The position numbers and the translations under genes are program-made. A stretch of 64,000 nucleotides of DNA from NCBI RefSeq assembly GCF_025995175.1, contig NZ_BAPV01000060.1, positions 124,001 to 188,000 of the forward strand, written 5' to 3'. Origin of the DNA: Asaia krungthepensis NRIC 0535. Its GTDB lineage: Bacteria; Pseudomonadota; Alphaproteobacteria; Acetobacterales; Acetobacteraceae. Below the pieces are notes generated by a model, which was not told where the DNA came from, made no database searches, and worked only from the letters and a program-made list of their open reading frames with translations. This document shows, in pieces, positions 29,702 to 34,242 of the stretch; position 1 is the first letter of the stretch, and each line of letters opens with the position of its first letter.

Positions 29702-30178
29702 ATGTCGTCGCACAAGCCCGCCCCCTCCCGCCTCGCAGCCGATCCGGAAACGAGCATCATCGAAGCCATTGAAGCTGCACCGCGCTATGAAGCGACGACC
29801 GGCGATGTGACCGTGTCAGTGCGCAGCTTCTGGCTGGAGGACCAGTCACAACCTGAAGACCACCATTACGCCTGGGCCTATCATATCCGTATCGAGAATG
29901 GCGGTGATGAGACGATCCAGCTCCTGGGACGCTTCTGGGAGATCACCGATGGACGGGGCAAGACAGATCACGTCCATGGTGAGGGCGTCGTTGGCGAACA
30001 GCCGATCCTGATTGCGCAGGAAATTTTCGAATACACATCGGGCGTTGCACTCCCCACGCCCTGCGGCTTCATGCGCGGGGTCTATTCGATGATCATCCCC
30101 GCCACTGCCGAACGTTTCGACGTCGTCATCCCGGCTTTCAGCCTGGATAGTCCCCATCGTCTCGGTCTCGTTCACTGA
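29702..30178 (+). CDS. apaG: ApaG protein
   Basis: A 158-residue protein with the immunoglobulin-like DUF525/ApaG domain: HYAWAYHIRIENGGDETIQLLGRFWEITDGRG, VVGEQPILIAQEIFEYTSGVALPTPCGFMRGVYSM. ApaG was linked to Co/Mg resistance and Ap4A levels in enterics, but its biochemical role is unclear. A 35-residue N-terminal extension precedes the domain. The 3' end overlaps the convergent diguanylate cyclase gene by 41 bases. Confidence 0.93.
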   Translation: MSSHKPAPSRLAADPETSIIEAIEAAPRYEATTGDVTVSVRSFWLEDQSQPEDHHYAWAYHIRIENGGDETIQLLGRFWEITDGRGKTDHVHGEGVVGEQPILIAQEIFEYTSGVALPTPCGFMRGVYSMIIPATAERFDVVIPAFSLDSPHRLGLVH

Positions 30179-33098
30179 CAATCATGCGGCCACGTCCCTC
30201 AAGCTTGGCCTGATAAAGAGCCTGATCGGCCCTCTCCAGCGTATCTGCCCAGCTTTCCTCGGGAGAGGTACGCGCTATGCCCGCACTGCATCCGATTGTC
30301 AGCGCGCCCACCTTCGTCTCGAAGGGAGTCTCACTCAACGCGGCCAGTAGAAGGGCAACGCGTGCATGCGAGGCGTGGGCATCACCGTGGATGACAATCA
30401 GGAATTCCTCGCCGCCGTAGCGACCGATGATTTCATCGGGCTTCTTGTCTCTGAGCAGGCGTGACCCGATACCGGCGAGAATCTCGTCGCCAATCATGTG
30501 CCCGAACGTGTCATTGATCGCCTTGAAGTAGTCGACGTCGAAAAGCGCCAGTGTCGCCGAGCGATATTCACCGTCGTAATCAGGACGGGCGAGCTTTTCC
30601 AGCAGACGCTTCGCACTTGCCTCTGCCGTCCTACGATTCATCAGGCGGGTCAGACCATCCTGACGGGCCTGTTGCTCGAGAGCATCCTGCGCGGCGCGCA
30701 TCTCCCTGGTGCGCTCATCAACGAGAGCTTCGAGCCGTCTCTGGCGCTTGACCAGATAGCGGAACCTGAACCGCGTGAGAGCGTAAGGAACCGCCACGAC
30801 GGAAATGACGTAAACGGCGATAAGTGGCCATGTGGCCCACCAGGGGCGCTGCATCCTGATTTCAAGGATGATCGGCCTGGATATCAGATTGCGATTATCG
30901 TTGATGGCCTGCACCACAAGCCGTGAATGACCGGGCGGGACGAAATTGTAGCGTATCTCACCGGTTGTCGTCTTGATCCAGCTCTGATCGACACCCTCCA
31001 GCCGGTAACGAAAATAGGTTGTCGGTGCCAGAGCTGTATTGAGCGACCCTAGCGTCACCATCAGCGGATCGCGCGAAAAAGGGACGGCCTTTTCTGGCAG
31101 CAGATGATCGCCGAGCCGGACCTGCACGAAAACGGGATTTAATGCGGTTTTTTCGAAAAAATGCTCCGGATGCATCAGGTGTGAGACACCTCGAGTGGTG
31201 GTCACCCAGATCGTGCCGTCATGGTCCTCAGTCAGTCCCTGCTGATTGATGTTGGCTGAAATCAGCCCGTCATCCTTCGTCAGGCGGACCCATTGTTGGC
31301 CGTCATAAGCCGCAAGCCCGTTCTCGGTCCCAACCCACAGACGCCTGTGGGAGTCTGCGAGCAGGCTGAAGACGATAGGGGATCCCGTGCGCCCCGGATC
31401 GATCTGCTCGATATGTGCGACGCGTGCCCCTTCAAGGGTGAGATGGAGCAATCCTGCGCGCGCGCGCAGACCTCCGACCCACAGATCATCGTGAGAGGAA
31501 AATGCCATGGTCATCGGCGAAAAATCGCGTGAGTTCGGCCAGTGCGTGACGGCTTTCACCCAGTGCCCGTCGCTCCCCCGTCTGTAGAGAGCCCCGCCAA
31601 TGGCCGCCCATGGCGTACCGTCGTCACGCATGGCAAGGGCGCCCGAAGGTTTGTCCAGAGCTTTGCCTTTATCATCCGTCGCAAGCACCGGCGAGGAACC
31701 ATCACTCTCCATAAGCTCGAAGAGACCGTCATCGGAGACGATCCACAGCCTCGAGCCGTCAGCCGATTGCCCTAGCCCCATGACGCGGCTCATGGGCAGT
31801 TTGCGATCGCACACAAATCCCTGCGGGCGATCCTGACAATGGAGCAGGAACTGATCGTCTACGGGGGCCCAGTAACCCGAACTTCCGTCCTTCAATCCGA
31901 AGAAGAAATTCCCTTCGCGCAGACGCTCGCCGACCTCGTTATGATGCAGCGGATAGACCCCGTGGTCGGTGAACAGCAATTGCCGTCCGTTATCGGGCAG
32001 CACTGACCAGACCGATCGTATGCTCTGAGGCTCCAGATTTTCCCAGACGCCCCAGCCAATAAGTTTGGTCAGTTCGACAGCATCCTGAACGGTCCAGAGC
32101 TGTCTATCCTTGTCGACAAAGCCGAAATAGATATCTTGTTCACGAGATAATTCGTGGTTGAGCGAACTCCAGTAATCACCGTCATAGGACAGGAGGTGAC
32201 TTCCATCAAAGAACACCGTTGCGTCAGACGATCGGGCTGTGAAGAGCGGACGATCAATGATCGTTCCCCTGTCGAAATCCCAGCCCAACGGCAAAATCGT
32301 GACACGACCGCCGAGCTCCGGGATCAGGAGTTCTCCGCGACGGTAGGCGAAAAGAGATCGGTTTCCGCGTTCGTACATCTGCTTGGGTACCGCAGCATCC
32401 TGCGGCAATACGAACCGGTGAATACCCGTGACGTCGCTGAACTGATTTGTCGCAACATCCCGCAGAACAAGATGGCCGTCGAGTTGCTGGGCTTGCTTCC
32501 CGCCCATCGGCAGTGACGCTTCGCAAGCGAGCACGGGACCTGAGGCAAGACTGCAAGAATGCACTCCCCTCGAATCAAGGGCGAAAATGACGCTCCCTTC
32601 GACGTAAAGGTTCTGGATCCGTCGTACATTAGCGGTCCTGACCGTACGGAATTTGAAAGCCGCCGGGGACGTACGTGCACTGGTTGGCTGATCAGAAAGG
32701 TAGAGAGACCCATCACGTACGGCCAGCAAGCGGCCATCAGGCAGAAAACTCAGCGTGTCAGCATGGGAAACCGCCCCGCCTCCTCCAATCAGCGGAACCT
32801 CGTAAAATCGCTGACCTGAGAAAAAATAAAGGGCGCGTAGCGTGAGAGCATACAGGTACCCTTGCCGATCCTGCGCCATTCCGAAAATATACGAGCTGTC
32901 GATCCCATCGCGCTGGGAAAACAATCTCATTGGCAGATCAGCATCCGGGGCCGAACGAGCCTGGCCCTGCATCAACAGGGTGAACATCAGCGTGGCCAAA
33001 AGCCACGATTTCAAATGCGGGCGGCGCACGGCGGCTGCTGTTTCCCCGCAGGGCACAGCAGCCGTTTCAGGTTGGAAAGATGCACTTGAAGCTATCAC
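30138..33098 (-). CDS. Membrane diguanylate cyclase with periplasmic propeller sensor
   Basis: A 986-residue protein: signal/anchor helix (about 30-48); a large periplasmic two-component-regulator propeller (about 50-690), with repeats such as LWVGGLRARAGLLHL and LWVGTENGLAAYDG; a Y_Y_Y-type domain (YFRYRLEGVDQSW to about 760); a membrane helix (WPLIAVYVISVVAVPYAL); a coiled coil; and GGDEF (about 825-980) with RYGGEEFLIVI. It should make c-di-GMP from GTP in response to a periplasmic ligand. The inhibitory RxxD site is degenerate (KPDE at the expected spacing). GTG start with AGGAG four bases upstream. Propeller sensors of this kind are better known from Bacteroidetes polysaccharide regulators. 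Confidence 0.9.
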   Translation of the reverse strand: MIASSASFQPETAAVPCGETAAAVRRPHLKSWLLATLMFTLLMQGQARSAPDADLPMRLFSQRDGIDSSYIFGMAQDRQGYLYALTLRALYFFSGQRFYEVPLIGGGGAVSHADTLSFLPDGRLLAVRDGSLYLSDQPTSARTSPAAFKFRTVRTANVRRIQNLYVEGSVIFALDSRGVHSCSLASGPVLACEASLPMGGKQAQQLDGHLVLRDVATNQFSDVTGIHRFVLPQDAAVPKQMYERGNRSLFAYRRGELLIPELGGRVTILPLGWDFDRGTIIDRPLFTARSSDATVFFDGSHLLSYDGDYWSSLNHELSREQDIYFGFVDKDRQLWTVQDAVELTKLIGWGVWENLEPQSIRSVWSVLPDNGRQLLFTDHGVYPLHHNEVGERLREGNFFFGLKDGSSGYWAPVDDQFLLHCQDRPQGFVCDRKLPMSRVMGLGQSADGSRLWIVSDDGLFELMESDGSSPVLATDDKGKALDKPSGALAMRDDGTPWAAIGGALYRRGSDGHWVKAVTHWPNSRDFSPMTMAFSSHDDLWVGGLRARAGLLHLTLEGARVAHIEQIDPGRTGSPIVFSLLADSHRRLWVGTENGLAAYDGQQWVRLTKDDGLISANINQQGLTEDHDGTIWVTTTRGVSHLMHPEHFFEKTALNPVFVQVRLGDHLLPEKAVPFSRDPLMVTLGSLNTALAPTTYFRYRLEGVDQSWIKTTTGEIRYNFVPPGHSRLVVQAINDNRNLISRPIILEIRMQRPWWATWPLIAVYVISVVAVPYALTRFRFRYLVKRQRRLEALVDERTREMRAAQDALEQQARQDGLTRLMNRRTAEASAKRLLEKLARPDYDGEYRSATLALFDVDYFKAINDTFGHMIGDEILAGIGSRLLRDKKPDEIIGRYGGEEFLIVIHGDAHASHARVALLLAALSETPFETKVGALTIGCSAGIARTSPEESWADTLERADQALYQAKLEGRGRMIVSERDRDDGDYPG

Positions 33099-33213
33099 TC
33101 GACTCCTGAAATCCCCGCCTATTTTATCGTCTACGAAGTCTAGGTCATGCGGAAGGGCTAGTCGTTAAAAAGCCGCAATATCAGCTCAGCCCAACCCTGT
33201 CGTCATCTGGAGC

Positions 33214-33759
33214 TCAAACGAGCCTGTACACCCCAACTGCGACCGAGCGATAGGCCGCAAGAGCGATGCTCTCAGACGTACCGACCACGCAGTTACCGTA
33301 CAGCGCGCAGGGATCGGCATGCCCACCGGCAGGCGGACGCGGTCCGGCAAGAGCGATGCTCTCAGACGTACCGACCACGCAATTGCCGTAAAGCGCGCAG
33401 GGATCGGCATGCCCACCGGCAGGCGGACGCGGTCCGGCAAGGGCGATGCTCTCAAACGTGCCGACCACGCAATTGCCATACAGCGCGCAGGGATCGGCAT
33501 GCCCACCAGCAGGCGGACGCGGACCGGCAAGGGCGATGCTCTCAGACGTGCCGACCACGCAATTGCCATACAGCGCGCAGGGATCGGCATGCCCACCAGC
33601 CGGGGGACGCGGACCGGCAAGGGCAATATGCGCCTCTGATGAGGAAGCCCCATGCCCGACGCTGCCGGTGGATGCAGCAGCCAATGAGCCAAGCGAGGTA
33701 ATCGTTCCGGTTACGATAAGTACGGAGAGTGACTTCGAAACAAGAGAGCGAATAGACAT
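33214..33759 (-). CDS. Exported protein of four 30-residue repeats with CALYGNC cysteine pairs, unknown function
   Basis: A 181-residue protein. Residues 1-30 are a good signal peptide (MSIRSLVSKSLSVLIVTGT, cleavage near LAAAS). After a Ser/Gly spacer come four head-to-tail units of 30 residues (45-74, 75-104, 105-134, 135-164). Each contains GPRPPAGGHADPCALYGNC followed by VVGTSES and IALA. The only residue change is Ser102 to Phe. Cys pairs (61/67, 91/97, 121/127, 151/157) enclose five residues and could form small disulfide loops in the periplasm. The last 17 residues are unrelated. The minus frame is chosen because of the signal peptide and because DNA differences between copies are mostly silent in it. 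The ribosome binding site is weak. No known family recognised; it could be a peptide precursor, a structural repeat or a ligand-binding array. Confidence 0.75.
   Translation of the reverse strand: MSIRSLVSKSLSVLIVTGTITSLGSLAAASTGSVGHGASSSEAHIALAGPRPPAGGHADPCALYGNCVVGTSESIALAGPRPPAGGHADPCALYGNCVVGTFESIALAGPRPPAGGHADPCALYGNCVVGTSESIALAGPRPPAGGHADPCALYGNCVVGTSESIALAAYRSVAVGVYRLV
33257..33616. repeat. Four tandem 90-bp direct repeats
   Basis: Units at 33257-33346, 33347-33436, 33437-33526 and 33527-33616, directly contiguous, with a partial fifth after 33617. The period of 90 keeps the reading frame. Copies differ at a handful of positions. Two units carry AGAGC-GAT-GCTCT, a short inverted repeat; the other two have GGGC in the first arm. 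There are no unique spacers, so this is not a CRISPR array. Confidence 0.97.
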
Positions 33760-34242
33760 GGGGCAGATCCATTTTCAAACGCGAGCGTTATTGCTTGCCC
33801 AATTAATGGATCGATATACCCAGCAAGTCTCGCGTCGATATGGAATGCCCCAACGGCAGAGTTATAAAAGAACAGAATAATCTGTATTGGTTCTTGTTTT
33901 TTGTTGATGATGTTTCCTGCCTTATTTACGTTTTTCTTGCCCCACAATCTGGGCTCCAATCCTCTGTTTCCGGTTATATTCCCATCAATACCCGTTACTC
34001 TCTTTTTTGATGATAAATTAACCGAATATTAGTCTCGCGACTGGGAGAGCTGGAGGCAGGCCAACAGACACTCAAGCGGCGTTCAGATCACACTCTGAAC
34101 CCAACATGTGGATCACAACGAATTTGGTTTGAATTAACGTGACAAAAGCTTAAAGATCACACTGACTTTGGGATTTCTCGTGTGATAACGGCGATCCCAC
34201 GGCTGGCCCTGCCATAGACTGCTACGACTAAGGTCTTCCCAT
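33760..34242. promoter_or_regulatory. AT-rich divergent region with repeated GATCACA motifs
   Basis: A 483-base gap between the repeat-protein gene and the sugar symporter, AT-rich compared with the genes. GATCACAC occurs at 34086-34093 and 34155-34162, GATCACA at 34111-34117, and the inverted GTGTGAT at 34180-34186. The first lies inside an inverted repeat TTCAG/CTGAA. These could be operators for the symporter; no regulator gene is adjacent. No convincing reading frame is present. Confidence 0.45.

Follow-up and report, generated by a model that had tools for sequence, protein, structure and literature searches.

An exported tandem-repeat protein paired with propeller diguanylate cyclases suggests an undescribed peptide-sensing switch in Acetobacteraceae

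Introduction

The yeast alpha-factor is made from a multi-copy pheromone precursor, while Phr/Rap and CSP/ComD are peptide-receptor gene pairs of Gram-positive bacteria. Genetically encoded peptide signals have seldom been described in Gram-negative bacteria, and the ligands of periplasmic sensors that govern cyclic di-GMP (c-di-GMP) are mostly unknown. One precedent for protein control of a diguanylate cyclase is the YfiBNR system, in which the periplasmic protein YfiR regulates the cyclase YfiN.

Here we describe a locus in a 64-kb stretch of the Asaia krungthepensis NRIC 0535 genome (the window) that shares features with each of these systems. As in alpha-factor, Phr/Rap and CSP/ComD, a leader and a spacer precede identical cores separated by drifting spacers, the copy number varies, a sensor gene lies nearby, and peptide and sensor both diverge quickly. 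Unlike those systems, it has a Gram-negative host, a Sec-type leader and a beta-propeller diguanylate cyclase as the putative receptor; there is no sequence relationship to any of the three, and processing and release are here presumed. The linkage of a small exported-protein gene to a cyclase with a periplasmic sensor recalls YfiR-YfiN, but YfiR is a folded domain with no repeats, YfiN possesses no double propeller, and the precursor has no match to the YfiR Pfam family. The sensor itself, with two propellers and a Y_Y_Y domain, resembles the Bacteroides Reg_prop/Y_Y_Y hybrid two-component sensors such as BT4663 (PDB 4a2l). However, the output domain is GGDEF here and a kinase there, and BT4663 senses heparin and heparan sulphate rather than a peptide; we know of no exported repeat peptide alongside it. 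By analogy, the locus would work like a ligand-receptor peptide pair; Pfam, NCBIfam and PDB searches placed its peptide in no described family. The open-access literature, which leaves out most subscription papers and preprints, yielded no description of such a peptide-cyclase pairing.

Results and discussion

The precursor is a 181-residue open reading frame with an ATG start and a stop codon on the minus strand (33214-33759), in which a leader and a short spacer precede four 30-residue units, with a short tail at the end. The original prediction of a leader followed by four near-identical units with cysteine loops was confirmed by translation, by TRF and by listing of the units. The leader MSIRSLVSKSLSVLIVTGTITSLGSLAAAS (residues 1 to 30; 33670-33759, minus strand) is hydrophobic, holds its position in all nine homologues (see below) and resembles a Sec signal peptide according to a crude score of our own. 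The array occupies residues 49 to 168 (33256-33615, minus strand) and is the top-scoring tandem repeat of the window (TRF 33257-33624: 90-bp period, 4.1 copies, 95% matches, score 624). Each unit reads GPRPPAGGHADPCALYGNCVVGT[S/F]ESIALA, the four copies differing by the single S/F alternative alone, and all four contain a C-x5-C motif. The unit can be divided into a 19-residue core, GPRPPAGGHADPCALYGNC, and an 11-residue spacer, VVGTSESIALA. The Asaia core (GPRPPxG...DPCxxxGxC) is probably closed by the predicted disulfide. As in the original prediction, the precursor could be placed in no known family: neither Pfam nor NCBIfam gave a match, and no significant relative by sequence was found in these databases or in the PDB. 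A search for structural RNA in the locus found none. As an aside, the invariant GPRP of the core matches the synthetic fibrin-knob tetrapeptide, which would need a free N-terminus; the match is probably coincidental.

Homology searching and a comparison of copy number, both proposed with the original prediction, recovered a precursor at the same locus in all eight other Asaia genomes, including Asaia bogorensis GD-01 and Asaia lannensis NBRC 102526. The number of units varies from one to six: five of the nine genomes encode a single unit, located at the C-terminus of an exported protein of 69 to 71 residues, and the remaining four encode 3, 4, 5 and 6. Across the genus the core consensus is GPRPP..DPCxxxGxC, with GPRP, G, DPC, G and C invariant. 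The units of the window, compared in all pairs, differ by 38 synonymous and 3 nonsynonymous changes (pN/pS 0.03), such that amino-acid differences per site amount to about 3% of synonymous ones. The precursor is therefore a real gene with a genuine coding frame, given the eight homologues and the large excess of synonymous over amino-acid changes between units. Loss of the frame among homologues had been named as grounds against the prediction; the frame is kept in all nine genomes. When successive units of four Asaia arrays were pooled, the core showed 24 synonymous and no nonsynonymous changes versus 12 and 20, respectively, in the spacer (Fisher p 4e-7). On these substitution patterns the core is the apparent target of selection and the spacer a linker. 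Beyond Asaia, no convincing sequence homologue was found in about 300 Acetobacteraceae genomes. Weak matches on Bradyrhizobium plasmids (E 3e-4) look compositional.

The diguanylate cyclase lies 115 bp downstream on the same strand (30138-33098, minus strand), and no terminator-like site was found between the two genes. Its open reading frame spans 986 codons, although the true start may be internal. It was identified by Pfam matches to Reg_prop, Y_Y_Y and GGDEF domains, by a GGEEF active-site motif and by models of two related sensors, which indicate a periplasmic double-propeller sensor; a transmembrane segment is located near residues 757 to 780. The closest PDB structures to one modelled sensor were the Bacteroides double-propeller sensors BT4663 and BT3049. 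The genome that contains the window has three strong GGDEF matches in all. Separately, Asaia possesses a second propeller diguanylate cyclase (L194, 3810-6902, reverse complement; L192, 3812-6832) that has no exported repeat peptide upstream.

On its other side, the precursor faces a divergent sugar-transporter gene. No protease, exporter, peptide-modifying or immunity gene is directly adjacent. Pfam and a scan of the neighbours thus bore out the surroundings originally described, namely a diguanylate cyclase and a sugar transporter with no adjacent processing enzyme or exporter. The wider neighbours (ArgJ, a pyridine-nucleotide oxidoreductase, a 2OG-Fe dioxygenase some 6 kb away, a Cys/Met enzyme, ApaG, IspD/F, ATP12, AsmA, a pseudouridine synthase and MgsA) are mostly housekeeping genes. 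The order of precursor and cyclase is maintained in nine of nine Asaia genomes; we place little weight on this, because the whole 20-kb region is syntenic throughout the genus and synteny within it is weakly informative alone.

More informative is the comparison across genera, of which 14 carry this cyclase in our sample of the Acetobacteraceae family. The slot before the related cyclases is repeatedly filled either by an exported tandem-repeat frame of unrelated sequence or by a short, single-unit exported frame. The arrays include 12 x 14 residues (unit RVASLRQWPAPNAI), 4 x 13 (VAYRHGWPQEEIKL), 7 x 16 (VAEIDPNIFHHWPTTG), 8 x 18 (VAALDPAISHHWASAA), 7 x 20 (VIDPSSRHEWPTAVALADGP) and 3 x 25 (AIRVGNEHRNFRIGTAPVTAPVQLA), one of about 3.5 x 33, another of at least 7 x 20 whose 5' end runs beyond the contig and whose leader falls outside the sequence, and several three- to fourfold arrays with an HHWP motif. 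Every convincing match to the HHWP-type peptides is at a cyclase locus; two further matches, in g53 genomes, are the low-complexity repeats beside a hydrolase described below. Many single-unit proteins are only 44 to 82 residues in total. A hand tally of 46 cyclase loci, in which relatives are not independent, gave 18 with a tandem peptide, 11 with a single unit and 17 with no recognisable peptide. On the cyclase tree, most members without a peptide belong to two clades; L120, labelled there as having none, in fact has a two-unit peptide. Two loci counted as peptide-less (L119 and L151) have upstream exported proline-rich proteins that share PSERLxxxPNQVxxQVAPxPxAPVKPG. Looking for a wider origin of the pairing, we found no repeat peptide in G491, a genome from outside the Acetobacteraceae with similar sensors.

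Several pairs may reside in one genome. Lichenicola cladoniae has four peptide-cyclase pairs with differing peptides, three of them on two plasmids; the one peptide gene that was checked is annotated as encoding a hypothetical protein. On the Kozakia baliensis plasmid pKB16680_2, an IS5 element separates the repeat peptide gene from a shortened cyclase, and the annotated hypothetical protein beyond the element is exported and built from an array of IRHPGGT units.

The pairing was then set against controls. Among 3,341 open reading frames of 45 to 320 residues in 486 kb, drawn from regions picked around cyclases and of which the slot is a small part, exported tandem-repeat frames were confined to the cyclase slots, to frames overlapping or antisense to these, and to one poly-Ala frame elsewhere. 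Enrichment in the slot was significant at p of about 1e-19, a value that uses an approximate slot count and ignores relatedness. Around 19 other GGDEF genes, taken from four genomes, no exported tandem-repeat frame was found (p 0.002); the script failed to delimit 7 of these 19 genes, whose entire fetched stretches were nonetheless scanned. A counter-example is provided by two Acetobacteraceae genomes (L213 and L214) in which exported low-complexity repeats, TGNSDSDPNDRPGRGRPT, lie upstream of an alpha/beta hydrolase, so exported repeat proteins are not exclusive to the cyclase slot. The recurrent pairing of peptide and cyclase is well supported. The cyclase, which the original prediction treated as an uninformative neighbour, is probably the functional partner of the precursor.

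The fastest-diverging part of the cyclase is its N-terminal propeller: residues 150 to 270 of propeller 1 retain 24 to 30% identity among Asaia, compared with 40 to 88% for other segments. Within a GGDEF identity band of 0.70 to 0.85, propeller-1 identity was 0.46 for peptide-bearing versus 0.73 for peptide-less cyclases, a comparison that comprises few independent pairs. A changing ligand would produce such divergence, which is consistent with this reading but is not proof of it. Structure prediction, also proposed at the outset, was run with AlphaFold on two chains from loci where peptide and sensor genes share one frame, with the stops read through. Both related sensors were modelled confidently over the sensor part; the peptide parts were of low confidence. 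A single unit scored a pLDDT of 31 to 42 with no confident docking, and an 8 x 18 array was helical at a pLDDT of 55 to 70, likewise with no confident docking, so the models lend binding no structural support.

We consider it fairly probable that the adjacent sensor has a peptide ligand, that this gene encodes its multi-copy precursor, and that c-di-GMP is controlled in this way. An exported precursor would carry several copies of one peptide, whose units would be cognate to the propeller sensor of the downstream cyclase, either as its ligand or as a modulator; the level of peptide would set c-di-GMP synthesis through that sensor, and tandem amplification would supply more copies per precursor. 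Each lineage would then have its own peptide, matched to the fast-diverging N-terminal propeller. Export, co-transcription, binding, the direction of control, peptide cleavage and release to other cells are steps that we infer. The likeness to alpha-factor drawn in the original prediction holds for the architecture, with its invariant cores, drifting spacers and one to six copies, and is partly supported as a whole interpretation. The peptide is not obligatory for the cyclase fold, since nothing recognisable as a peptide precedes 17 of the related cyclases.

The nearest rival is that the exported protein stays uncleaved in the periplasm and regulates the cyclase in the manner of YfiR, its repeats conferring avidity or clustering sensors. 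An exported product whose gene adjoins a cyclase with a periplasmic sensor, together with the YfiBNR precedent, would suit such a regulator. Yet the precursor has no YfiR-type or other Pfam domain, the unit that was modelled is predicted to be disordered, and the single-unit forms in five of nine Asaia genomes indicate that multivalency is not essential; we regard this account as unlikely, though deserving of some weight. The single-unit forms, along with the contrasting selection on core and spacer, lead us to favour units that act individually over a pure avidity scaffold. Less probable again is that the repeat protein belongs to the surface, matrix or envelope and shares its regulation with a biofilm-pathway cyclase by chance. 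Tandem repeats are common in exported surface proteins, and unrelated low-complexity examples are present elsewhere in the Acetobacteraceae, but many of the proteins considered here consist of one short unit, no anchor or sorting domain was found in the precursor, and from genus to genus the slot before the cyclase persists with occupants unrelated in sequence.

The original prediction also held a metal- or ligand-binding array to be equally open. The conserved cysteine pair of Asaia and the His-rich HHWP units of other genera would agree with a modified-peptide, antimicrobial or metal-binding precursor (a RiPP, bacteriocin or bufferin-like product), with the cyclase as bystander or regulator. 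This we judge very improbable: genes for modification, immunity and export are absent directly beside the precursor, and several units, such as those of L115 and L110, possess neither Cys nor His. Units from the slots of other genera share no common Cys/His pattern, which weakens the metal-array idea and led us to reject it as a general reading.

The peptide-ligand reading can be taken further, albeit tentatively and with the odds somewhat against it. Secreted and cut peptides, read by species-specific propeller cyclases, would make c-di-GMP dependent on density or kin, with co-diversification of ligand and receptor and several private channels per cell. If the peptides are indeed released signals read in this way, the system would be of a new kind. 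The peptide-ligand idea, if true, would also explain how biofilm formation is tuned in acetic-acid bacteria and their relatives. The hosts include Asaia, an acetic-acid bacterium and symbiont of mosquitoes, other insects and flowers, as well as Kozakia and Lichenicola. Candidate ligand and sensor lie side by side, are short and occur in culturable hosts, so the idea is open to tests with synthetic peptides.

Two short elements flank the precursor. Between its stop codon and the cyclase start is a conserved box, TTTTTAACGAC (33161-33171, minus strand), which is present at all nine Asaia loci with one or more mismatches in one or two of them, and which matches once in the window. In the gap that separates the precursor from the divergent transporter gene, most Asaia loci carry a TTAATTTATCATYAA-type element (window 34007-34022) resembling a CtrA site (TTAA-N7-TTAA).
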